In this document: positions 32,421 to 45,260 of the stretch, in pieces
How the letters are laid out: every line of letters starts with the position of its first letter
How positions within the stretch are numbered: position 1 is the first letter of the stretch
DNA from: Fluviicola sp. XM-24bin1
Lineage (GTDB): Bacteria > Bacteroidota > Bacteroidia > Flavobacteriales_D > Crocinitomicaceae
Reading direction: 5' to 3'
Assembly (NCBI GenBank): GCA_003149635.1
Contig: QCWI01000001.1
Span: 141,959-205,958 of the forward strand
Length of the DNA stretch: 64,000 nucleotides
Position numbers and translations under genes: made by a program
The notes under the pieces: model-generated
What the model was told of the DNA's origin: nothing
What the model saw: only the letters and a program-made list of their open reading frames with translations
Database searches by the model: none

Positions 32421-32837
32421 CTAGCGGTCCTCTTCTTTTACAAGTCGTGGTAAGTTGATGTCTTCCTCAATGACAAAACATGTAGGAAACTCCGCGGTCA
32501 TCGCAGCCTTGATTTTCTCTGCCTCCAAGCGCGTTCTGAAATCGCCCACTTTCAAATAGTAATTGGGTGCAGTGTATTCCACATACGTGTCCACGCGCGG
32601 GAATTGAGCGATAAATCGAGAACGGGCATTATTAATTGTACCACGATCCGAATCAAAGTACAATTGAACGCGATATCCTTTAATCTTCGTCTTGGTGTCC
32701 GGAGGAATTACTTCGCTTTGCTTTGCAACAAGCGCATCAATACGGCCATCTTTCTTGACTTGAATGTCTCCTTGTTGGGCAATAGAAAGCCCTGTGAAAC
32801 TGAATGCGGCGATGAATAATAATAAGGTCTTCCTCAT
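32421..32837 (-). CDS. SPOR domain protein
   Basis: A 138-residue exported protein with a signal peptide (about 1-21, ending LSIAQ). Residues about 53-125, with GYRVQLYFDSDR and YYLKVGDFRTRLEAEKIKA, form a SPOR domain, which binds peptidoglycan stripped of stem peptides, often at division sites. It is first in the SPOR-rnpA-S41 unit and has its own -7 element. Confidence 0.85.
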   Translation of the reverse strand: MRKTLLLFIAAFSFTGLSIAQQGDIQVKKDGRIDALVAKQSEVIPPDTKTKIKGYRVQLYFDSDRGTINNARSRFIAQFPRVDTYVEYTAPNYYLKVGDFRTRLEAEKIKAAMTAEFPTCFVIEEDINLPRLVKEEDR

Positions 32838-32866: not shown

Positions 32867-32958
32867 CAAAAGTTGGGTCAATGACTATGCCAAAATATCT
32901 AAACAAGCCGGAAAGTACTGACGGAACAGCAGTTGAAAGAATACGCACAAGTATCTTT

Positions 32959-32977
32959 ATTTAGAATCTTTCTAAAT
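32959..32977. promoter_or_regulatory. 19-bp palindrome, candidate operator upstream of actA
   Basis: ATTTAGAA and TTCTAAAT are perfect arms around TCT. The size and shape fit a dimeric regulator site, possibly of the Fur family. It lies in the 251-bp divergent gap, 56 bases upstream of the actA -7 element and 92 bases upstream of the SPOR gene -7 element. The remainder of the gap shows nothing else clear. Confidence 0.5.
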
Positions 32978-33033
32978 TAATTCGTGGCGATTCAAAAGTG
33001 TCATACAAATGTCATGTAAACTGACTTTTGTGC

Positions 33034-33041
33034 TAAATTTG
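33034..33041 (+). promoter_or_regulatory. Putative -7 element of the act-cox operon
   Basis: TAAATTTG is a perfect TAnnTTTG, 47 bases before the actA ATG. ACTTTTG lies immediately upstream, too close to be a normal -33 box. Confidence 0.5.
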
Positions 33042-33088: not shown

Positions 33089-34456
33089 ATGAAAATATCT
33101 AGTAGTCAGATGTTTAGAAATTTTAACAAATGGTGTCTAGCCGTAATGACAATCCTGTTTTTAACAGGGTCATATACTGCTCAGGCTCAAGATGGAGGAA
33201 CTTTATTTAAGGCCAACTGTGCCACGTGTCACCATCCTTTTAACGATGGTACCGGGCCAAAGCTTTCCGGAGTACGTGATGCTTGGTTGGAAAATGCTGA
33301 TGAGGCTACGTTAATCCTATGGGTTCGTAACTGGCAGGATGCAGCAGCACAAAGTTCTTATGCTCAGCAACGCTCAACATTGAAAGGGTCGGCAATGACT
33401 GCTTTTGGTGATAAGTGGACAGACGAGCAAATTCTTTCAATTTTCGATTGGATCGATGCACAAGTGCAGGATGATGGTTCCGGTGGCGGAGGCGATGCTG
33501 GAGGTGCTGAAGGTGGAGCCACAGAAGAAGAAGAATCTTCTTTAGGTTGGATCTGGATCGCATTGTTCGCAGTATTCGCAACAATTATTCTTGCAGTAGG
33601 AGGTGTTCGTCGTCAACTGAAGCATGCGCAAGTAGAAGTTGAAGGAGATGAAGAAGGAGCTACAGCAAGCTACGCAGATGAATTGAAGAAATGGGCATGG
33701 TTGAACCGCAAGTATGTTGGACTGGGAGCCTTGGTTGTAGTGATTGCATTGTTGGTGACATTGTTCCAAGGACTTTACAGTATCAATATTATGGAGGGAT
33801 ACCAGCCTTCTCAGCCGATCGACTTCCCTCACCAAACGCACGCTGGAATCAACGGTATTGATTGTAAGTACTGTCACAACACAGTAACTGAGTCAAAATC
33901 TGCAAGTATTCCATCGGTAAACGTTTGTATGAACTGTCACAAGCAGATCAAAGGAAACGAGCCGGAGCAGCAAGCGAAAATCCAGAAGATTTACGATGCA
34001 GCAGGATGGGATGGTCAGAAATACACAGGTAAAACAAAACCTATCGTTTGGAACAAAGTTCACAACCTTCCAGATCACGTGTACTTCAACCACCAACAAC
34101 ACGTAGTTGTAGGAGGATTGGATTGTGCGCAATGTCATGGAGATATGACGAAGCAAGTTGAGGTTGCGAAAGTTCAAACGCACGAAGAGTTGAATGCAGT
34201 TCAAGCGAACATCGATGCAGGAATCAACTTTACAAAAGCAACATTGACAATGGGATGGTGTATCGAATGTCACAACCAAGCGACAATCGCTCCTGGAATT
34301 TTGGCAGACGATAACCCACAAACATTGACATACTACGATGAGATTCACAACCGATTGGTGAAGCATAACAAATCATTGTATAGCAAGTTCCTTGATGATG
34401 ATAAAGTGAGTCCGAGAGAACTAGGTGGATGGGAGTGTGCTAAGTGCCACTATTAA
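33089..34456 (+). CDS. actA: Alternative complex III multihaem cytochrome c subunit ActA
   Basis: A 455-residue multihaem cytochrome. After a signal sequence, a mono-haem domain has CATCH (44-48). A Gly/Glu-rich linker and two membrane helices (about 152-170 and 213-231) lead to a C-terminal domain with five more motifs: CKYCH, CMNCH, CAQCH, CIECH and CAKCH. That gives six haem c sites, facing the periplasm. In alternative complex III these form the wire carrying electrons from the quinol site to the oxidase. It is the first of eight genes in one direction with short gaps. Confidence 0.93.
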   Translation: MKISSSQMFRNFNKWCLAVMTILFLTGSYTAQAQDGGTLFKANCATCHHPFNDGTGPKLSGVRDAWLENADEATLILWVRNWQDAAAQSSYAQQRSTLKGSAMTAFGDKWTDEQILSIFDWIDAQVQDDGSGGGGDAGGAEGGATEEEESSLGWIWIALFAVFATIILAVGGVRRQLKHAQVEVEGDEEGATASYADELKKWAWLNRKYVGLGALVVVIALLVTLFQGLYSINIMEGYQPSQPIDFPHQTHAGINGIDCKYCHNTVTESKSASIPSVNVCMNCHKQIKGNEPEQQAKIQKIYDAAGWDGQKYTGKTKPIVWNKVHNLPDHVYFNHQQHVVVGGLDCAQCHGDMTKQVEVAKVQTHEELNAVQANIDAGINFTKATLTMGWCIECHNQATIAPGILADDNPQTLTYYDEIHNRLVKHNKSLYSKFLDDDKVSPRELGGWECAKCHY

Positions 34457-34486: not shown

Positions 34487-37400
34487 ATGGGAATGAATAG
34501 AAAATATTGGAAGGGGATTGACGAGTTGCACGAGACTCCTCAGTTTCTAGAATCCAGAGATCAGGAATTTCCGACTCAAACTTCTGTAGAGGAGTTTTTG
34601 GGTGATGATAAATTACAAGAGTCATCTACAGGACGACGCGACTTCCTAAAGTTTTTAGGGTTTAGTGTGGCGGCAGCAACAGTTGCAGCATGTGAGGCTC
34701 CAGTAAATAAAGCGGTACCTTATGTAAACAAGCCAGAGAATGTAACGCCAGGTATGCCAACATGGTATGCTTCTACTTACTACGATGGAATTTCTTACGC
34801 TAGTATCCTAGTTAAGACGCGCGAAGGTCGACCTATCTTTATTAAAGGAAACAAAGACTACGGTATTACAAAAGGTGGTGTGAATCCTCGCATCATTGCT
34901 TCTGTATTGAGTCTTTACGATAGCGAGCGTATCACGCGTCCAACAATTAAAGGAGATTCAACTTCATATACGGATCTTGATAAGAAAGTGGCTGCTGGAC
35001 TGAAGTCTGCAAACAAAGTAGTTCTCGTATCCAATACGGTTACAGGGCCTACTGCGATGACAGCAATTGGAGCGTTGAAAGAAAAAGTAGGTGCGGATAA
35101 ATTCCAGCACATTCAATACGACGCTACTTCATACGCAGGAATGCGTGAGGCAAACAAGCAATCTTTCGGATTGACTGTGAACTCAATGATGGCAGCACCA
35201 ACTGAGCCAGTTGAAGGTGATGAAATGGCAGACAACGCCGAGCCAGTAATGGCAGCGCCTGCTGATGACGGGCCTGGAATCATTCCAAGCTACGATTTCT
35301 CGAAAGCGAAAACAATCGTTTCTATCGATGCTGATTTCTTAAACTCTTGGTTGATGCCAACAGTATTTGCAGGTCAGTACGGTGAGCGCCGTAACCCAGA
35401 TGGGGAATGGATGAATAAACATTTCCAGTTCGAATCAGTAATGTCTGTTACAGGATCAAACGCTGACGTTCGTGGAATGATCAAGCCTTCTCAACAAGCG
35501 AATGTAATCGCTTACTTGTTGAAAGAATTCAATGTTTCGACTTCAGTTTCTACGAAATTGGAAGGTTCAGCATTGAAGGCGGCTAAGAAAGCGGCGAATG
35601 CATTGAAAGTATCGAAAGATGCTTCTGTAGTAGTTTGTGGATCGAATGACGTGGATGTTCAAATGATGGTGAACAAATTGAACCACGTTATTGGAGCGTA
35701 CAAAACGACAATCAATGTAAACGATCCAATCAAGATGTTTATGTCTGATGATGCAGCAATGACTGAGTTTGCATCTTCAGTAGCGAAAGGAAACGGGCCG
35801 GATGCTGTAATCTTCTACGGAGTGAATCCAGTGTACACGCTTCCAAACGGAAAAGATTTCGCGAAAGGATTAAAGAAAATTAAAACATCTGTTTCTATGT
35901 CGCTTTACGCGGATGAAACAGCTTCTCGTTGTAAATATGTTGCATCTGACCTTCACGCATTGGAGGCTTGGAACGATTTCAACGTAATGGGTGATCACTA
36001 CGCGATCGCTCAACCAACCATTCGTCCACTTCACAATACAGCTTCAGCTATTGAATCTTTCCTAGTTTGGGCAGGTGAAGAAACGCGACCAACATCAGCG
36101 GAAAGAAAAGACTCTAAAATTGTTCATGACTTCATGCGTGGACTGTGGGTAGAAAATGGAATGCCATTATCTAACTACACAGACGAGCATACGTACTGGA
36201 ACATGATGGTGCACAACAGTTGTACAGATACAACAATGGTGGCACCAACGCAACCAGATTTCATCGGTAATCTTTCATCAGTGAAAGCACCAGCAATTTC
36301 AGGAAAATGGGAAGTGGTGATGTACCAGAAGTCTGGAATGGGAATTGGTCAGCAAGCAAACAACCCTTGGTTGCAGGAAATGGCGGATTCTCTAACAAAG
36401 GCTACTTGGGACAACTACATCACAATGGCTCCAAGAGATATGGACGACAATAAATGTGAAAAGTTCTTCGATCAGGAGAACGGATTAACTTTAGCAACAT
36501 TGACAGTTAACGGTGCGTCTGTGAAACTTCCAGTTATGCCTTTGCCAGGTCAAGCGCCAGGAACAGTTGGTGTCGCTTTAGGATACGGACGCGGTGCTGA
36601 CGGTGAGAAAATCGGTATGGCTGCCTACCAAACTGCAGAGTACGGTGGACACGTTACTGATGAGAAAGGTAACAAAGCAACAATTGGAGAGAATGCCTTT
36701 GCATTGACTTCAGTTTCGAATGGAACATATTCATTGTACGGAGGAGGTTCTCTGAAAGTACATGCAGATGAAAAATACTTGGTAGCGGTAACGCAGATTC
36801 ACGGAACAGCAATGGGACGTAACTCTGTAATTCGTGAGACTACGAAGGACATCTACGATAATAAAGATAAATCAGCTTACAACCCTGAGTACACGCTACA
36901 GAAAGTAGATGAGCATGGGCACCACGTGGAAGCACCAATCGAAGAGTTTGATCTTTGGGATGCGCATCCAGTTGAAAACGTAGGGCACCGTTGGGGAATG
37001 ACAGTTGACTTGTCTTCTTGTTTCGGATGTGGATCTTGTTTGATCGCATGTCAGTCAGAGAACAACGTACCAGTTGTAGGTAAGACAGAAGTACGTCGCG
37101 GACGTGAAATGGCTTGGTTGCGTATCGATCGCTACTTTGCTTCAACAGAAGAAGCAGCGCCAGGTACACGATACGATCACGAGAAGAGCAAAATGGAGTG
37201 GTTTGCTGATGCTGAGAACCCAGAGGATAACCCGATGGTAGTGCACCAGCCAATGATGTGTCACCACTGTAACCACGCTCCTTGTGAGACAGTTTGTCCG
37301 GTTGCAGCGACAACGCACTCAAACGAAGGATTGAACCAAATGACATACAACCGTTGTATCGGTACTCGTTATTGTGCGAACAACTGTCCGTACAAAGTAC

Positions 37401-37888
37401 GTCGATTCAACTGGTTCAACTACCCATCTTACAAAGCACAAGCAGAAATCAACCCAGCACAAGACGATCTTGGACGTATGGTATTGAACCCTGACGTAAC
37501 GGTTCGTACACGAGGTGTGATGGAGAAATGTTCAATGTGTGTGCAGCGTATTCAAGCTGGTAAATTGGATGCTAAAACGGAAAATCGTCCAGTACAGGAT
37601 GGTGATTACACGACAGCATGTGCCGATGTATGTCCAGCGAACGCAATTACGGTTGGAGACTGGAACGATCCGAACTCAGCAATTCGTAAGAGCGCAGATG
37701 ATAAACGTGCATACCAAGCTCTTGAAGAAGTTGGTGTGAAACCAAATGTGTGGTTCAAAGTGAAAGTTCGTAACGAAGCAAATGATGCTTTGGCGAAAAT
37801 TCAGAAAGAGAAGCACCATGAAGAGCACGGTGAACACGGTGATAAAGGTCACGGTGGACACGGAAAGAAAAAAGAAAAAGCACATTAA
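34487..37888 (+). CDS. actB: Alternative complex III iron-sulfur subunit ActB
   Basis: A 1133-residue fusion of a molybdopterin-oxidoreductase-like region (without expected cofactor) and a ferredoxin-like region. RR at 50-51 in TGRRDFLKFLGF is a twin-arginine signal, and Cys69 in VAAC may carry lipid. From about 845, CFGCGSC, CHHCNHAPCETVCP, CIGTRYCANNCP, CSMCVQ and CADVCP supply the ligands of four Fe-S clusters. The last residues are His/Lys-rich. ActB sits in the periplasm and relays electrons within complex III. It follows actA by 30 bases. Confidence 0.95.
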   Translation: MGMNRKYWKGIDELHETPQFLESRDQEFPTQTSVEEFLGDDKLQESSTGRRDFLKFLGFSVAAATVAACEAPVNKAVPYVNKPENVTPGMPTWYASTYYDGISYASILVKTREGRPIFIKGNKDYGITKGGVNPRIIASVLSLYDSERITRPTIKGDSTSYTDLDKKVAAGLKSANKVVLVSNTVTGPTAMTAIGALKEKVGADKFQHIQYDATSYAGMREANKQSFGLTVNSMMAAPTEPVEGDEMADNAEPVMAAPADDGPGIIPSYDFSKAKTIVSIDADFLNSWLMPTVFAGQYGERRNPDGEWMNKHFQFESVMSVTGSNADVRGMIKPSQQANVIAYLLKEFNVSTSVSTKLEGSALKAAKKAANALKVSKDASVVVCGSNDVDVQMMVNKLNHVIGAYKTTINVNDPIKMFMSDDAAMTEFASSVAKGNGPDAVIFYGVNPVYTLPNGKDFAKGLKKIKTSVSMSLYADETASRCKYVASDLHALEAWNDFNVMGDHYAIAQPTIRPLHNTASAIESFLVWAGEETRPTSAERKDSKIVHDFMRGLWVENGMPLSNYTDEHTYWNMMVHNSCTDTTMVAPTQPDFIGNLSSVKAPAISGKWEVVMYQKSGMGIGQQANNPWLQEMADSLTKATWDNYITMAPRDMDDNKCEKFFDQENGLTLATLTVNGASVKLPVMPLPGQAPGTVGVALGYGRGADGEKIGMAAYQTAEYGGHVTDEKGNKATIGENAFALTSVSNGTYSLYGGGSLKVHADEKYLVAVTQIHGTAMGRNSVIRETTKDIYDNKDKSAYNPEYTLQKVDEHGHHVEAPIEEFDLWDAHPVENVGHRWGMTVDLSSCFGCGSCLIACQSENNVPVVGKTEVRRGREMAWLRIDRYFASTEEAAPGTRYDHEKSKMEWFADAENPEDNPMVVHQPMMCHHCNHAPCETVCPVAATTHSNEGLNQMTYNRCIGTRYCANNCPYKVRRFNWFNYPSYKAQAEINPAQDDLGRMVLNPDVTVRTRGVMEKCSMCVQRIQAGKLDAKTENRPVQDGDYTTACADVCPANAITVGDWNDPNSAIRKSADDKRAYQALEEVGVKPNVWFKVKVRNEANDALAKIQKEKHHEEHGEHGDKGHGGHGKKKEKAH

Positions 37889-37909: not shown

Positions 37910-39439
37910 ATGCATAAGGAAGCAGCAATTAGAGAACCCCTCATATTAGGTCACAAGACCTATCATGACATCACCGAAGACGTATGTCGCCCGATTGAGG
38001 ACAAGGCACCACGTATGTGGTACATCCTTTTCGGAATTGCATTGATCATCGGATTGTATGGTGTAGGATGTATTCTTTACCTACTAGGTACCGGTGTCGG
38101 TGTTTGGGGACTTAACAAAACCATCGGTTGGGCATGGGATATTACCAACTTCGTTTGGTGGGTAGGTATCGGACACGCCGGAACCTTGATCTCAGCCGTG
38201 CTACTCTTGTTCCGTCAAAAGTGGCGTATGGCGATCAACCGTTCAGCGGAAGCGATGACAATCTTCGCCGTATTTATGGCAGGTTTGTTCCCGCTGATCC
38301 ACATGGGACGTCTTTGGTTAGGATACTGGGTATTGCCACTTCCAAACCACTTTGGTTCTCTTTGGGTAAACTTTAACTCACCACTCCTTTGGGACGTATT
38401 CGCGATCTCTACCTATCTATCAGTTTCCCTTGTATTCTGGTACATTGGTCTAATTCCAGATTTCGCGACAATTCGTGACCGCGCGAAAAAGCCGATTCCA
38501 AAGAAGATGTACTCAATCATGTCATTCGGATGGTCAGGACGTGCAAAGCACTGGAACCGTTTCGAATTGGTATCATTGGTATTAGCCGGATTGGCAACGC
38601 CACTAGTATTCTCGGTACACTCAATCGTATCCTTTGACTTCGCCACTTCAGTTATCCCTGGATGGCACACCACTATCTTCCCTCCATACTTCGTAGCAGG
38701 GGCGGTATTCTCAGGATTCGCAATGGTACAAACGCTTCTACTCATCATGCGTAAAGCAATGAACCTTGAGGCTTACATCCATACGAAACACGTAGAGTAC
38801 ATGAATATCGTAATCATGGTAACCGGATCTATCGTAGGTACGGCATACATTACCGAGCTGTTCATCTCATGGTACTCAGGTGTAGAATACGAAGCATACG
38901 CATTCATCAACCGTGCAACTGGTCCTTACTGGTGGGCATACTGGGCAATGATGACGTGTAACGTAATCTCTCCACAGTTGATGTGGTTCAAGAAATTGCG
39001 TCGTAGCCTTCTATTTACGTTCATCATTTCAATTGTAGTAAACATTGGTATGTGGTTCGAGCGTTACGTAATTATCGTAACATCATTGCACCGCGACTTC
39101 CTTCCTTCATCTTGGAGCATGCACTACCCAAGTCACATCGATATCGGTGTGTACATCGGTACAATCGGATTGTTCTTCGTGTTCTTCCTATTGTTCGCGC
39201 GTTACTTCCCGGTATTGGCATTGAACGAGGTGAAATCAATCTTGAAAGGATCTGGAGAGTCATACAAGAACATGCCAGACGATCACCACCACGAGGAGCC
39301 AGCAGCTGTTGAAGAAGCACCAAAAGCGGAAACGCCAGCAGAGGAGCCGAAGGCAGAAGAATCAACTGAGGAGTCTTCAGACGATTCAAACGAAGGTGAT
39401 GCAGAAGAGAAAGAAGATAATAACGATAATAACGAATAA
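37910..39439 (+). CDS. actC: Alternative complex III NrfD-like membrane subunit ActC
   Basis: A 509-residue integral membrane protein with 8-10 helices, of the NrfD/PsrC family that binds quinol. ActC and ActF are the two such subunits of alternative complex III, and ActC is considered the quinol-oxidising one. The conserved His/Asp-rich face near GIGHAGTLISAVLLLFRQKWR is visible. The last 55 residues are a highly acidic, Glu/Asp/Ser/Asn-rich tail not needed by the fold. Confidence 0.95.
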   Translation: MHKEAAIREPLILGHKTYHDITEDVCRPIEDKAPRMWYILFGIALIIGLYGVGCILYLLGTGVGVWGLNKTIGWAWDITNFVWWVGIGHAGTLISAVLLLFRQKWRMAINRSAEAMTIFAVFMAGLFPLIHMGRLWLGYWVLPLPNHFGSLWVNFNSPLLWDVFAISTYLSVSLVFWYIGLIPDFATIRDRAKKPIPKKMYSIMSFGWSGRAKHWNRFELVSLVLAGLATPLVFSVHSIVSFDFATSVIPGWHTTIFPPYFVAGAVFSGFAMVQTLLLIMRKAMNLEAYIHTKHVEYMNIVIMVTGSIVGTAYITELFISWYSGVEYEAYAFINRATGPYWWAYWAMMTCNVISPQLMWFKKLRRSLLFTFIISIVVNIGMWFERYVIIVTSLHRDFLPSSWSMHYPSHIDIGVYIGTIGLFFVFFLLFARYFPVLALNEVKSILKGSGESYKNMPDDHHHEEPAAVEEAPKAETPAEEPKAEESTEESSDDSNEGDAEEKEDNNDNNE

Positions 39440-39442
39440 GAC

Positions 39443-39979
39443 ATGGCAGATAAAGTAATATATGCAATGTATGACGACGACAACGTACTGAAAGACGGTG
39501 CGAAGAAGTTGGTATCGAAAGGAGTAAAGGTATCGGAAGTATTCTCTCCGTTCCCAATCCACGGTATTGATCCTATCATCGGTGTTAAAAACACACGTTT
39601 GGGTATCATGGCCTTTATCTACGGTCTGACGGGTCTTACGTTAGCGACAATTGGGATGCGCTACTTCATGGTAGTGGATTGGCCAATGAACATTGGTGGT
39701 AAACCGAACTTTACATACTTGGATAACATTTTGGCATTCATTCCAATTTCATTCGAGTTCACTGTATTGTGTGCGGCACACGGAATGGCAATTACGTACT
39801 TCTTGCGTAACAAAACGCTTCCGGGAATGCCAGCGCAAAACCCAGATCCACGTACAACGGATGATCGTTTTGTAATGGAACTACGCACTTCTGAAAACTC
39901 TCAGTTCTCTGCAGAGGAATTAGAAGCCATGTTGAAAGAGACAGGTATCGTAGAGTTGGATCAAAAAGATGTAGCATAA
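39443..39979 (+). CDS. actD: Alternative complex III subunit ActD (DUF3341)
   Basis: A 178-residue protein matching DUF3341/ActD. A soluble N-terminal part starting VIYAMYDDDNVLKDGAKKL is followed by two membrane helices (about 53-70 and 98-118) and a soluble tail. It is a structural subunit of alternative complex III without redox centres. The gap from actC is three bases. Confidence 0.95.
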   Translation: MADKVIYAMYDDDNVLKDGAKKLVSKGVKVSEVFSPFPIHGIDPIIGVKNTRLGIMAFIYGLTGLTLATIGMRYFMVVDWPMNIGGKPNFTYLDNILAFIPISFEFTVLCAAHGMAITYFLRNKTLPGMPAQNPDPRTTDDRFVMELRTSENSQFSAEELEAMLKETGIVELDQKDVA

Positions 39980-39995: not shown

Positions 39996-40787
39996 ATGAA
40001 AATGAAATTGAGAATAATAGGAAGTTTAGCGATCGCAGCAGTATCCACGTTGATCCTTGGATCTTGTGGAGGTGATCCGGATAGCCCAGGGTTGGAATAC
40101 ATGCCAGACATGTACCGCTCGCCTGCAGTAGAGCCGTACGTAGATTACGGACACATCAAAGAGCGTGAGAATCCTGAATTGAAAACGCGTTTGTCTGCAA
40201 TGACACCTCCAAATGGAACGATTCCTTACTACGGAACAGATTCAGCAGAAGTGTACCTAATGTTGCCATACAAGCACAAAGCGAACGACGAGTTTAGAGA
40301 AACACACGGAATGTACGGTGAAGAGCTTTCTCCGAAAAGTATCAACACGTACGAATTGGCTGCAACAGACAAGAACCCATTGGCATTGCCAGCAGAATCT
40401 GATTCATTGGCATACAAAGCCTTCTGGAAAGGAGCTGAGAAGTTATTCGTAGCGAACTGTGCACACTGTCACGGTGAGAAAGGAGACGGTAACGGCCCAA
40501 TGATGGCTAACGAAACGTACACAGGAGTTCCTGATTACAAAAACGTAGCGGCAACAGAAGGACAAATGTTCTACTCTATTTACTACGGTAAAGGAGCAAT
40601 GGGATCGCACAGATCAATTGTAAACAAGAAGGAAATCTGGACATTGGTTCACTACATCCAACGCTTGTTGAACAAAGATTACGGAACTGCTGATTTTGAA
40701 GCTGAGGCTGACACCGAAGGTGAAGAAGCTGAAGGAGAAGAAGTAGCAGATGGAGAAGAGTCTGAAGGAGACGGAGAAGAAGGATAA
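39996..40787 (+). CDS. actE: Alternative complex III mono-haem cytochrome ActE
   Basis: A 263-residue lipoprotein cytochrome. The signal ends in LILGSC, with the lipid-carrying Cys at about 24. One haem motif, CAHCH, lies at about 154-158, and the axial Met is probably in KGAMGSH. The final 40 residues are almost all Glu, Gly, Asp and Ala. In the complex ActE gives a haem c near ActA and ActB on the periplasmic side. Confidence 0.93.
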   Translation: MKMKLRIIGSLAIAAVSTLILGSCGGDPDSPGLEYMPDMYRSPAVEPYVDYGHIKERENPELKTRLSAMTPPNGTIPYYGTDSAEVYLMLPYKHKANDEFRETHGMYGEELSPKSINTYELAATDKNPLALPAESDSLAYKAFWKGAEKLFVANCAHCHGEKGDGNGPMMANETYTGVPDYKNVAATEGQMFYSIYYGKGAMGSHRSIVNKKEIWTLVHYIQRLLNKDYGTADFEAEADTEGEEAEGEEVADGEESEGDGEEG

Positions 40788-40828: not shown

Positions 40829-42034
40829 ATGGAATTTAAAGTATCAAGTAAATCAAACATGATCTCCTACGGTCTGATCATCGCAGGAATCCTAAGTTTA
40901 GTGATAGGTTTGGCAGTTCACAGTGGTGACGGAGATCTTTACGTAACGCGCATCATGGGTGGGTTGCTTTCCAACAGTTATTTCTATTTCTGTATTGCGT
41001 TAGGAGCATTGTTCTTCCTAGCGTTGAACTACGCAACGGAAGCTGGATGGTACGCATATATCAAACGCCCAATTGAAGCAATTGCTTTGGCACTTCCTTA
41101 TGGAGCAGGAATGCTTGCTGTAGTTCTTTTGGTAATTACAGTAATGGACGGAGCACACGTTTACGGATGGATGGATCCTGAATTGTATAAAGAAGGTGGT
41201 CATCATTATGATCCAATTGCAGCAGGGAAACAATTCTACTTGAACAAAACATTCTTCTGGATCAGAACAGTAGCATACCTTGCGACATATTTAATCTTTC
41301 TTCGCGGATTCCGCAAGCGTTCATTGGAAGAAGATCGCGTAGGTGGAACAGAAATTCACTTCCGCAACTACCGTAAAGGAGCTTTGTTCTTGGTATTCTT
41401 CGCAGTATTTAGCTCAACATCTTCTTGGGATTGGATCATGTCAGTAGATTACCACTGGTTCTCAACACTCTTTGGATGGTACAACTTCGCAGGAATGTGG
41501 GTATCTACAATGGTTGTATTGGTGATGTTGGTATTGTACCTAAAAAAGCAAGGATACTTGCCAAAAGTGAACGACAGTCACATTCACGATATCGGTAAAT
41601 GGATGTTCGCCATCTCTTTCCTATGGTCGTACTTGTGGTTCTCACAATTCATGTTGATCTGGTACGCAAATATCCCGGAAGAGGTAACGTACTACGTAGC
41701 TCGTATCCAGGATCACAAATTCTTGTACTTCTTCATGTTCATAATCAACTTCGCATTCCCAATGTTGATTTTGATGTCACGTGATGCGAAACGCCATGCA
41801 GGAATCTTGACATTCATTGGAATTATCATTCTTCTAGGACACTGGTTGGATGCTTACCAAATGATCGCAATTGGATCTCAAGGGCCAAACGCATACCCTG
41901 GATTCATTGAATTCGGAATCGGAATCGCACTTGCTGGAGTATTGCTCAAACTAGTTTTGACAAACCTTACGAAGGCACCATTGACGCCGGTGAATCACCC
42001 ATTCTTGGACGAAAGTATTCACCACGACATTTAA
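40829..42034 (+). CDS. actF: Alternative complex III membrane subunit ActF
   Basis: A 401-residue membrane protein with about ten helices, the second NrfD-like subunit of alternative complex III. The segments STSSWDWIMSVDYHWFSTLFGWYNFAGMW (cited as landmarks at about 194-222) and LGHWLDAYQMI are typical. It stabilises the complex and may contribute a proton path. It is the last act gene; coxB follows after 29 bases. Confidence 0.93.
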   Translation: MEFKVSSKSNMISYGLIIAGILSLVIGLAVHSGDGDLYVTRIMGGLLSNSYFYFCIALGALFFLALNYATEAGWYAYIKRPIEAIALALPYGAGMLAVVLLVITVMDGAHVYGWMDPELYKEGGHHYDPIAAGKQFYLNKTFFWIRTVAYLATYLIFLRGFRKRSLEEDRVGGTEIHFRNYRKGALFLVFFAVFSSTSSWDWIMSVDYHWFSTLFGWYNFAGMWVSTMVVLVMLVLYLKKQGYLPKVNDSHIHDIGKWMFAISFLWSYLWFSQFMLIWYANIPEEVTYYVARIQDHKFLYFFMFIINFAFPMLILMSRDAKRHAGILTFIGIIILLGHWLDAYQMIAIGSQGPNAYPGFIEFGIGIALAGVLLKLVLTNLTKAPLTPVNHPFLDESIHHDI

Positions 42035-42063: not shown

Positions 42064-43407
42064 ATGGCTAAATTGTTCGTATTACTGGTAATTATTTTGG
42101 GAGTTATAGCTCTTGCGCAATTGATGCGTGTATATGAGTTATCCTCAAAATTGACGAATAAGAAAGAGAACGAGATCACGAACCGTGACAACCGTTTGAA
42201 TGCAAAGCTTATGCTTGGATTCATGTTGTTCTTATTCATTGGATTCATCTGGTTGATGCTTAAGTATGGATGGACAGGTCGAGGGCCTGCAGCTTCCGTT
42301 CATGGTGAGCAAACGGATTGGTTATTGAACCTAAACTTCGTAATCATCATTATCGTATTCTTCCTTACAAACGCACTATTGTTTGTATTCGCTTGGAAGT
42401 ATGTGAAGAAGCCAGGAGTTCCTGCATTCTACTACCCGCACAACAACAAGTTGGAGATGGTATGGACGGTAATCCCAGCGATTGTTTTGGCTGTGATCAT
42501 CATCTTGGGTCTTCGTAGTTGGAATGAAGTAACGGATGATGCTAAAGATGACGCTATCCGCGTAGAGTTGTTCTCGTACCAGTTTAACTGGAACGCTCGT
42601 TACGCTGGTGTGGACAACAAACTTGGAAAGTACGATTACAAATTGACTGACGATGCTTCAAACCCATTGGCATTGATGACAACCGAAACAATCGATAAGT
42701 CGATTGAGTTGATGACATCTGGACCAAACGGAATTGAAGATTTGGAAGCGAAATTGAACGATCCAAAATTGGTGTTCTCTGATAAGATCCGTACGGAAAT
42801 GGAAGAGCGTTTGGCACGCAAAGAGCAATTGATTCGCTTGTTGCACCAAATGAAAGCACGTCACACAGGTGAGACGGACAAGCAAGCAATGGATGATTTC
42901 ATTACAGATACATTGTTCTTGTGTAAAGGAGAAAACTACGAGTTCACATTCCGTTCGAAAGACGTAATTCACTCGGCTTACATTCCTCACTTGCGTGCAC
43001 AAATGAACACGGTACCTGGAGCGATCACACGTTTCAAGTTAACACCGAGTATGACGACACAGGAAATGCGTGAGGAGAAGAACGATGAGAATTTCAACTA
43101 CATCCTCATGTGTAACAAGATTTGTGGTGGAGCTCACTACAACATGAACATGATTGTTGTTGTATTGGATAAAGCTGAATACAAGGCTTGGTGGAAATTG
43201 AAAACAGAAGGAGCGAAAGATCCAGCGAATTCAAAAATGTACACCACTTTCCCTGCAACGTTTGGAGAATCTTACTACAAGACACTTCAATCAGCGCAAG
43301 AAGAAATGCAGAAAGAATTGGACGCGGCTAAAGTTGCTGAAGAAGTAGAAGGAGAGGAAGGAGAAGATGCTGAAGGAGGCGAAGTAGAAGGAGCACCAGC
43401 AGCATAA
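42064..43407 (+). CDS. coxB: Cytochrome c oxidase subunit II
   Basis: A 447-residue subunit II, longer than usual. Three hydrophobic segments come first, including an N-terminal helix at about 1-20 before the usual pair. The CuA site is complete: His in VIHSAYIP and the C-x3-C-x3-H-x2-M set in CNKICGGAHYNM. An insertion of about 100 residues lies inside the CuA domain, a feature of Bacteroidota CoxB, and the C-terminus is a Glu/Gly-rich tail. It accepts electrons from the act complex and passes them to subunit I. Confidence 0.95.
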   Translation: MAKLFVLLVIILGVIALAQLMRVYELSSKLTNKKENEITNRDNRLNAKLMLGFMLFLFIGFIWLMLKYGWTGRGPAASVHGEQTDWLLNLNFVIIIIVFFLTNALLFVFAWKYVKKPGVPAFYYPHNNKLEMVWTVIPAIVLAVIIILGLRSWNEVTDDAKDDAIRVELFSYQFNWNARYAGVDNKLGKYDYKLTDDASNPLALMTTETIDKSIELMTSGPNGIEDLEAKLNDPKLVFSDKIRTEMEERLARKEQLIRLLHQMKARHTGETDKQAMDDFITDTLFLCKGENYEFTFRSKDVIHSAYIPHLRAQMNTVPGAITRFKLTPSMTTQEMREEKNDENFNYILMCNKICGGAHYNMNMIVVVLDKAEYKAWWKLKTEGAKDPANSKMYTTFPATFGESYYKTLQSAQEEMQKELDAAKVAEEVEGEEGEDAEGGEVEGAPAA

Positions 43408-43454: not shown

Positions 43455-45260
43455 ATGGGGGCAGTAGCGCACGAAGCACACGGACACCACGACGATCACG
43501 GACACCACGAGGAAAGTTTCGTATCAAAGTACATCTTTAGTCAGGACCACAAAATGATTGGTAAGCAGTTCTTAATGACTGCTGTCTTCATGGGGGTTGT
43601 GGCAATGTTGTTATCTATTTTGTTCCGTATCCAATTGGCATGGCCAGGAGAAGAGTCTGAATTTCTTTCTTTCTTCCTTGGGAGTGATTGGGCACCGAAC
43701 GGAGTATTGAGTGAGGACATGTACCTCGGATTGGTAACAATTCACGGTACAATCATGGTATTCTTCCTTCTTACAGGTGGATTGTCAGGAACATTCTCAA
43801 ACCTTCTAATTCCATTGCAGGTTGGAGCACGTGATATGGCATCAGGATTCCTGAACATGTTGTCGTACTGGTTCTTCTTTATCTCATCAGTTTTGATGTT
43901 CGTTTCATTGTTTGTTGAGACGGGGCCAGCGATGGCCGGATGGACGATTTACCCTCCACTATCCGCCTTGCCAACTGCGGTACAAGGATCAGGGATGGGT
44001 ATGACACTTTGGTTGTTCTCCATGAGTATCTTCATCGCATCCTCATTGATTGGATCTTTGAACTACATCGTAACAGTATTGAACTTGCGTACAAAAGGAA
44101 TGTCTATGACGCGTCTTCCATTGACGATTTGGGCGTTCTTCGTTACAGCAATCCTAGGGGTACTTTCATTCCCGGTACTACTTTCAGCAGCAGTACTATT
44201 GATGATGGATCGTATGGCAGGAACAAGTTTCTACCTATCAGACATCATCGTACAAGGAGAAATGTTGACGCAACACGGTGGTTCACCACTCTTGTACCAG
44301 CACTTGTTCTGGTTCCTAGGTCACCCGGAGGTATATATCGTACTCTTACCTGCCCTTGGATTGTCATCAGAAATTATTTCAACGAATTCACGAAAGCCGA
44401 TCTTTGGTTACCGTGCGATGATTGGATCCATTCTCGCAATTGGATTCCTCTCATTCATCGTATGGGGTCACCACATGTTCGTCACCGGTATGAACCCATT
44501 CCTGGGTAGTGTCTTCGTATTTACGACCTTATTGATTGCTATCCCATCAGCGGTGAAAGTGTTTAACTACATCACAACGCTTTGGAGAGGATCGATTGTT
44601 TACACACCAGCAATGTTGTTCGCCATCGGATTGGTATCAACGTTTATCACAGGTGGGGTAACAGGAATCATCCTCGCGGATTCAGCATTGGATATTGCCA
44701 TTCATGATACCTACTTCGTAGTTGCTCACTTCCATATTGTGATGGGTATGTCAGCCGTCCTCGGTATGTTTGCCGGAGTCTACCACTGGTTCCCTAAGAT
44801 GTATGGAAAAATGATGAATACACGCCTTGGATACGCTCACTTCTGGATCACATTGATCGGAGCATACGGAGTATTCTTCCCAATGCACTTTGTTGGATTG
44901 GCAGGAGCGCCTCGTCGTTACTACGATTACTCAGTGTACGAGTCATTCGACGGAAGCACATTCGAAATGATGATGGACTTGAACGTAATCATTACCATTT
45001 TCGCAATCATCGCGGCATTGGGTCAGATCTTGTTCTTGTTCAACTTCTTCTATAGTATTTTCCGAGGGCCAAAAGCACCTCAGAACCCATGGCGTTCGAA
45101 TACGCTTGAGTGGACAACGCCAGTAGAGCACATCCACGGTAACTGGCCAGGAGAATTGCCTACGGTACACAGATGGCCGTACGATTATTCGAAACCGGGT
45201 CAAGAAGAAGATTTCGTTCCTCAAACGGTGCCATTGGCAGAAGGCGAGGAAGAGCATTAA
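43455..45260 (+). CDS. coxA: Cytochrome c oxidase subunit I
   Basis: A 601-residue haem-copper oxidase core that reduces O2 and pumps protons. GHPEVYIVLLPALG holds a CuB His, the cross-linked Tyr and the Glu of the D-channel, which marks an A1-type oxidase. WGHHMFVTGMNP supplies the other CuB ligands, and HDTYFVVAHFHIVMG the haem a3 and a ligands. The N-terminus is unusually His-rich (GHHDDHGHHEE). A terminator follows. No subunit III gene is adjacent. Confidence 0.97.
   Translation: MGAVAHEAHGHHDDHGHHEESFVSKYIFSQDHKMIGKQFLMTAVFMGVVAMLLSILFRIQLAWPGEESEFLSFFLGSDWAPNGVLSEDMYLGLVTIHGTIMVFFLLTGGLSGTFSNLLIPLQVGARDMASGFLNMLSYWFFFISSVLMFVSLFVETGPAMAGWTIYPPLSALPTAVQGSGMGMTLWLFSMSIFIASSLIGSLNYIVTVLNLRTKGMSMTRLPLTIWAFFVTAILGVLSFPVLLSAAVLLMMDRMAGTSFYLSDIIVQGEMLTQHGGSPLLYQHLFWFLGHPEVYIVLLPALGLSSEIISTNSRKPIFGYRAMIGSILAIGFLSFIVWGHHMFVTGMNPFLGSVFVFTTLLIAIPSAVKVFNYITTLWRGSIVYTPAMLFAIGLVSTFITGGVTGIILADSALDIAIHDTYFVVAHFHIVMGMSAVLGMFAGVYHWFPKMYGKMMNTRLGYAHFWITLIGAYGVFFPMHFVGLAGAPRRYYDYSVYESFDGSTFEMMMDLNVIITIFAIIAALGQILFLFNFFYSIFRGPKAPQNPWRSNTLEWTTPVEHIHGNWPGELPTVHRWPYDYSKPGQEEDFVPQTVPLAEGEEEH

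Follow-up and report, generated by a model that had tools for sequence, protein, structure and literature searches.

What acts at the palindrome that precedes the act-cox operon of Fluviicola sp. XM-24bin1, and in which direction? The palindrome, ATTTAGAA-TCT-TTCTAAAT, had been singled out in a sequence-only reading and is confirmed at positions 32959-32977 of the 64,000-nucleotide stretch of DNA analyzed here (the window). It reads ATTTAGAATCTTTCTAAAT in full, with two perfect 8-bp arms and a 3-nt loop, and lies in a divergent intergenic region between a SPOR-domain gene and actA.

Layout of the act-cox promoter and operon

The features of the region are as follows.

32421-32837, minus strand: divergent SPOR-domain gene, its start 122 bp from the box in the same intergenic region
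32957-32979, plus strand: predicted Fur-type box, from conservation before actA (palindrome at 32959-32977, centre at 32968)
32999-33015, plus strand: direct repeat TGTCAT-N5-TGTCAT with an 11-bp period, probable site of a second regulator, from the repeat in aligned act promoters
33034-33041, plus strand: -7 element TAAATTTG (Bacteroidota TAnnTTTG), starting 66 bp downstream of the palindrome centre
33089-34456, plus strand: actA, multihaem and monohaem cytochrome c of alternative complex III (Pfam cytochrome families)
34487-37888, plus strand: actB, molybdopterin-type and 4Fe-4S subunit (Pfam 4Fe-4S families; TIGR04519 over its cut-off)
37910-39439, plus strand: actC, NrfD-like membrane subunit (PF03916)
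39443-39979, plus strand: actD (PF11821 ActD, E 3.7e-53)
39996-40787, plus strand: actE, cytochrome c (PF13442)
40829-42034, plus strand: probable actF, from its position alone, with no family match
42064-43407, plus strand: coxB, cytochrome c oxidase subunit II (PF02790 over its cut-off; PF00116 and TIGR02866 below theirs)
43455-45260, plus strand: coxA, cytochrome c oxidase subunit I (PF00115, E 5.2e-138)

The gene order after the box is thus actA, actB, actC, actD, actE, probable actF, coxB, and coxA. The sequence TAnnTTTG is described as the -7 consensus of Bacteroidota promoters (PMC9723704). Outside the operon, the genome holds a second ActA-like multihaem stretch (C7:177854-178258), an open frame of 187 amino acids that is 70% identical to ActA residues 232-356.

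In terms of shape, the palindrome does not stand out. The window contains 13 perfect dyads with arms of at least 8 bp and loops of up to 10 nt, compared with 12.6 expected from 20 second-order Markov simulations (sd 2.9), and two dyads with a 3-nt spacer, compared with 1.25 expected from the same simulations. The notion that the palindrome is remarkable by shape alone was therefore rejected, as a dyad count so close to chance means that shape by itself proves nothing. As a specific sequence it is single in the window, where the next best 19-mers match the published Fur box of Riemerella anatipestifer at 14 of 19 positions. It is conservation in relatives that makes the palindrome significant, and alignment of these relatives widens it to a conserved 23-bp block, 32957-32979.

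Conservation of the box before act

The box was found before act in two sets of loci that share some genomes, the counts of which are kept separate and never summed. In the first set, 29 of 30 loci include the upstream region, and all 29 carry the box with at most two mismatches to TTTAGAATNATTCTAAA. The second set comprises the best 80 of at least 583 genome-contig matches, 77 of which are usable with at least 140 bp of upstream sequence; the box precedes actA in all 77 with at most two mismatches, the count of mismatches to TTTAGAATNATTNTAAA being zero in 45 loci, one in 31, and two in one. Loci not counted in the analysis as a whole were L040 and L278 (too short), L205, L217, and L226 (less than 140 bp upstream), and L092 and L336 (less than 100 bp). 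In control stretches taken from the same act loci, 77 from coding sequence and 73 from 640-900 bp upstream, no match with two or fewer mismatches was present, the best having three and four. Among the matches listed, the closest ActA proteins in named genomes belong to Flavobacteriales, Crocinitomicaceae, Fluviicola, and Lishizhenia. The box of the present genome has a T at a core position where all 77 relatives have A, G, or C; this T is also seen in genome G009.

The distance from the box centre to TAnnTTTG at act is 66 bp in 75 of the 77 loci of the second set (from the best 80 of at least 583 matches), 64 bp in one, and 67 bp in one. For the 75 promoters with a spacing of 66 bp, mean pairwise identity is 0.92 over the 19-bp box and only 0.33 over the linker at +14 to +27. 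The distance from the box to the -7 element is thus preserved where the sequence of the linker is not. Just upstream of the box, on the side of the SPOR-domain gene, identity in the same 75 promoters is 0.325. The low identity on that side bears on a reading in which the box serves the divergent SPOR-domain gene, or an unseen RNA on that side. The box does sit in a shared intergenic region, 122 bp from the start of that gene, but it is the flank toward act that is conserved, and we consider this reading very unlikely.

Beyond the family, the box is present before act in 13 of 14 loci from other families of the order, at spacings of 65-67 bp, and absent in one. In a sample of the phylum that yielded 13 further act loci of the same class, one of them from the same family, it is present in nine and absent in four; the spacing is 55/56 bp in six of these nine and 66/67 bp in two, and in the ninth no phased -7 box is present.

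Further copies of the box adjoin mostly iron-linked genes

The pattern ATTTAGANTNANTCTAAAT, with up to one mismatch allowed, matches 29 of 30 genomes at 1 to 10 sites each, giving totals over the 30 genomes of 150 forward matches versus 10 in a reversed control. Looser patterns showed no enrichment genome-wide (33 versus 55 and 42 versus 35 matches, forward versus reversed control), so enrichment is limited to the strict motif. The lack of enrichment for loose patterns, together with the chance-level number of dyads in 64 kb, could be taken to mean that the palindrome arose by chance and has no function. Such an origin is extremely improbable given a box at a fixed distance in 77 of 77 usable relatives (from the best 80 of at least 583 matches) and the excess of strict matches over the control.

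The sequence-only reading had proposed a search for copies near genes for siderophore or haem uptake, and the outcome bears it out: 36 of 41 sites adjoin a recurring, mostly iron-linked set of genes. These 41 are the sites of eight genomes among the sites listed, with act and nqrA left out. Targets were named from translations, with Pfam or NCBIfam backing for one to a few representatives of each and from translation alone for a small peptide. They comprise the small Cys/Lys-rich peptide (seven sites), sufA (six), DUF4856 (six), hemA (five), hmuY (three), DUF6607, imelysin, and a LuxR-type response regulator (two each), and HTTM, sdhC, and Fe/Mn superoxide dismutase (one each). No clear target was evident at the remaining five of the 41 sites (L112, L133, L135, L137, and L143). 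Copies in the present genome lie upstream of sufA, of a DUF4856 gene, and of a DUF6607 gene that is followed by a HmuY-like gene (HmuY match of 25.5 bits, below the 27-bit cut-off); one further site lies between paa genes and one near sufS. In relatives, copies lie upstream of HmuY (over the cut-off), imelysin, HTTM, and sufA.

The small Cys/Lys-rich peptide is 39-51 amino acids long with a core of KKKKCCKK...CKKCPK. Its frame starts 2-3 nt after the box, which itself directly follows TAnnTTTG (L136, L139, L117, L129, L147, and L123, from 2001 on the plus strand; L125 on the minus strand). Fur probably represses this small protein. A CotH gene and a PepSY gene were rejected as targets, as the sites precede the small Cys/Lys-rich frame and hmuY, respectively. 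A small-RNA reading of a conserved box downstream of an HDAC-like gene was likewise rejected, as that box precedes a small Cys/Lys-rich open reading frame. At three loci (L127, L148, and L047), the start codon of a LuxR-type response regulator follows shortly after a Fur-type box.

A second palindrome, approximately ATACC-N8-GGTAT, was noticed by eye close to the -33 or -7 region of sufA, hmuY, DUF4856, DUF6607, imelysin, and HTTM promoters, next to Fur boxes at L115, L138, L142, L134, and L118. It is perhaps the site of a second iron or Fe-S regulator.

Fur is the very likely binder of the act box

The palindrome had been read as a site for a dimeric metal regulator of the Fur type, and comparison with R. 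anatipestifer, a member of the same order, supports that reading, as do the copies near iron genes. The R. anatipestifer Fur box, ATTTAGAATTATTCTAAAT, was predicted with RegPredict, has EMSA support on four promoters (PMC5609570), and is the same 19-bp palindrome, agreeing with that of the window at 17 of 19 positions. A rhuB box with one further change was also shifted by Fur in EMSA (PMC10986502); an E. coli-type Fur box is cited instead for this organism in PMC7976709. Genes reported as Fur-regulated in R. anatipestifer include those for HmuY, HmuR, imelysin, and vitamin K-dependent gamma-carboxylase (PMC5609570), and these uptake families are those found next to boxes here.

Two proteins of the genome match the Fur family (PF01475), with E values of 4.1e-25 (contig C13) and 3.4e-9 (contig C10), and comparison of the first with PDB sequences gives Fur proteins as its best matches. 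The strong match is encoded at L150:2106-2558 on the minus strand, where a 114-aa frame and then a purA-like gene come after fur (L150:472-2558, by eye). In Flavobacterium psychrophilum, deletion of fur is reported to have failed, and purA lies downstream (PMC9331221). The weaker Fur-like protein adjoins genes that resemble COG0523 and MerC (by eye), neighbors that suggest a role in zinc. Because of the box match, the common target families, and the presence of a Fur protein in the genome, Fur is very likely the protein that binds the act box.

IscR- or PerR-type regulators also control genes such as sufA, hemA, and superoxide dismutase, all of which occur in the gene set described above. A different regulator that responds to iron, Fe-S, or redox state (Rrf2/IscR, MerR-like MliR, or PerR-like) could bind the act box, alone or along with Fur, and the ATACC-N8-GGTAT palindrome (by eye) in several uptake promoters would fit a further regulator of this kind. 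MliR of Bizionia, a MerR-like protein, is reported to support iron use and complex III transcripts in this member of the Bacteroidota (PMC9478572). We regard another binder as unlikely: the box is, at 17 of 19 bases, one with EMSA support for Fur, the uptake targets belong to the same gene families, and the genome's other Fur-like protein is the weaker match with neighbors that suggest zinc.

Promoter geometry suggests activation at respiratory operons

The box recurs upstream of three further operons, nqrA, sdhC, and hemA, for which spacing was measured from the box centre to the -7 box with explicit coordinates per locus. At nqrA, 30 of 39 promoters carry the box with at most three mismatches, the -7 box being 65/66 bp away in 26 and 55/56 bp away in three, and the box is absent in eight of the 39 (6-7 mismatches). 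Outside the order, only two of nine nqrA loci from the class or phylum have it (at 66 and 57 bp), and the other seven lack it. At sdhC, the box is present in 22 of 37 loci with at most three mismatches and in 30 with at most four, and the spacing is 44/45 bp in 25 and 66/67 bp in two. At hemA, the corresponding counts are 19 and 26 of 28; [TC]AnnTTTG occurs at 54-56 bp in 19 loci, with the strict TAnnTTTG in only one. Control stretches for nqrA, sdhC, and hemA gave 0/36, 0/28, and 0/28 matches at three or fewer mismatches, and two sdhC controls matched at four. Stray -7 matches were seen at other distances, e.g. 21, 23, 26, 30, 36, and 76 bp, one each.

Across these four operon families, the box is therefore upstream of the -7 element at mostly 44/45, 54-56, or 64-67 bp. 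The main spacings of 44, 55, and 66 bp are one DNA turn apart, as for an activator site, and the promoter geometry at act suggests activation. At other targets the arrangement is reversed. A -7-like TAnnTTT[GA] lies 16 to 35 bp before the site centre at the small peptide (7/7), sufA (6/6), hmuY (2/3), and the response regulator (2/2), which puts the transcription start under the site, the placement expected of a repressor. The geometry is ambiguous at the DUF6607 sites, with boxes at +39 and at -16 or -23; the superoxide dismutase site has one at +26, and no -7 box was recognized at four of six DUF4856 and two of two imelysin sites. Read most simply, these promoter sequences would have the site repress suf and several uptake genes and activate the respiratory ones.

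A TGTCA repeat in the act promoter, between box and -7 element

All 75 aligned act promoters (among the best 80 of at least 583 matches) contain [TC]GTCA-N5..7-TGTCA between the box and the -7 element. In the present genome, the exact repeat TGTCAY-N5-TGTCAY occurs four times versus zero in a reversed control, the four copies being located at act, at hemA, upstream of a fused ccoNO, and at tatA (by eye); the copies other than that at act are at C1:103228, C3:196922, and C7:78869. The repeat may also be a Pho box, for which copies before phosphate-starvation genes would be expected; the four exact ones are at respiratory or related genes and none is at a phosphate gene. The repeat suggests that a respiratory regulator works together with Fur at act and hemA, and its copies perhaps mark a small respiratory regulon. 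A frame of 786 amino acids at L362:1904-4264 on the minus strand consists of CcoN and CcoO of cbb3 oxidase in fused form (COX1 and FixO domains).

The position of the repeat in these 75 promoters also fits a reading in which the act box is a Fur box but Fur lowers act, through interference with the regulator of the TGTCA repeat or by bending the promoter into an inactive form. Fur is, moreover, mainly known as a repressor (PMC5609570). Interference, however, needs no constant or phased spacing across an unconserved linker, and the phased box is present at nqrA and sdhC as well. Repression of an iron-costly complex under plentiful iron would also make little sense. We consider lowering of act by Fur improbable.

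Iron-dependent expression in R. anatipestifer

Published expression data from R. anatipestifer bear on the sign of control. The complex III subunit RAYM_00020 goes down at low iron, with listed values of -1.01 in the wild type and, more strongly, -3.47 in the fur mutant; for the fur mutant over the wild type, the table gives -2.23 at low iron and a blank at high iron (PMC5609570). Succinate dehydrogenase genes also go down in both strains, with values at low iron of -1.01 to -1.46 in the wild type and -2.47 to -2.79 in the fur mutant, with no listed effect of the mutation, and SufA, SufB, and SufD rise at low iron in both strains, thus also without Fur (PMC5609570). In strain CH-1, cytochrome genes are reported to fall at low iron (PMC5429918). 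According to these data, iron controls complex III, succinate dehydrogenase, and suf genes in R. anatipestifer, where Fur also sustains complex III at low iron.

The data fit activation by Fur only in part. An activator in the form of iron-loaded Fur predicts a drop in the mutant at high iron, and the blank at that position in the table counts against the simple model; the absence of a listed loss of complex III at high iron is equally a point in favor of Fur lowering act. On the other hand, the fur mutant at low iron has less complex III than the wild type, which is the opposite of what such lowering would produce. The response of complex III, succinate dehydrogenase, and suf genes to iron without Fur means that R. 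anatipestifer must have another iron-linked input, an observation that favors a different regulator at the act box. Table 5 of PMC5609570 gives 11 Fur boxes, none of them at complex III. Apart from the expression table of that paper, the literature searches brought up nothing on control of complex III by Fur, and a paper that mentions both alternative complex III and Fur draws no link between them in the available text.

Discussion

We consider it fairly probable that Fur, when loaded with iron, represses uptake genes and is itself a direct activator of iron-rich respiration, with the palindrome as the Fur box of act-cox. Confidence in the parts of this model differs: it is strong for Fur as the binder, moderate for activation as the effect at act, and weaker for iron-loaded Fur as the active form. 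When iron is sufficient, the Fur dimer would bind the act-cox box. At sufA and several uptake genes, Fur on a box over the transcription start would bring expression down. At act, the box centre, 66 bp upstream of the -7 element, would place Fur on the same helix face as at nqrA, sdhC, and hemA (44, 55, or 66 bp), where it may help RNA polymerase, and iron-rich respiration would be made when iron is available. The TGTCA direct repeat, downstream of the Fur box and ahead of the -7 element, would be bound by a second regulator.

The proposed arrangement can be compared with known systems. In E. coli, the Fur regulon includes iron sparing by RyhB, and respiration is controlled through this small RNA. 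The logic would be the same here, with sufficient iron shutting off uptake and turning on iron-rich respiration, but unlike the RyhB route, the box is located directly in the promoters at helically phased distances. Class I activation of the CRP type in E. coli employs activator sites at several upstream positions one helical turn apart, like the phased boxes described above; CRP is of another protein family and acts at another promoter type than the -7/-33 promoters considered here. The streptococcal PerR box, TTAGAATCATTCTAA, belongs to a peroxide regulon. Its core is nearly identical to that of the present box and PerR is of the same protein superfamily, whereas the targets here are mostly iron and haem genes. 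The closest system is that of R. anatipestifer, with the same palindrome and the same uptake target families (HmuY, imelysin, and vitamin K-dependent gamma-carboxylase). In contrast to the reading proposed for the act box, the reported role of the R. anatipestifer box is repression from within 100 bp of start codons, and the available part of that report describes no phased upstream position of the kind found at act, nqrA, sdhC, and hemA (PMC5609570).

The box is thus known from one relative, and no description of a conserved, phased position before core respiratory operons came up in our literature searches. In our estimate, the chance is even that, across much of the class to which Flavobacteriales belongs, Fur activates alternative complex III, Na+-NQR, succinate dehydrogenase, and haem synthesis directly and in dependence on iron. 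If so, Fur at boxes placed whole turns upstream of the -7 element would achieve through direct activation what E. coli achieves through small RNAs of the RyhB type, and a widespread example would join the few in which Fur is known to activate directly. The implied rule would be activation at 44, 55, or 66 bp and none at half-turn spacings. Iron sparing in Bacteroidota is little known, and a phased Fur box at complex III, NQR, succinate dehydrogenase, and HemA would explain how respiration is matched to iron in a large group of aerobic bacteria.
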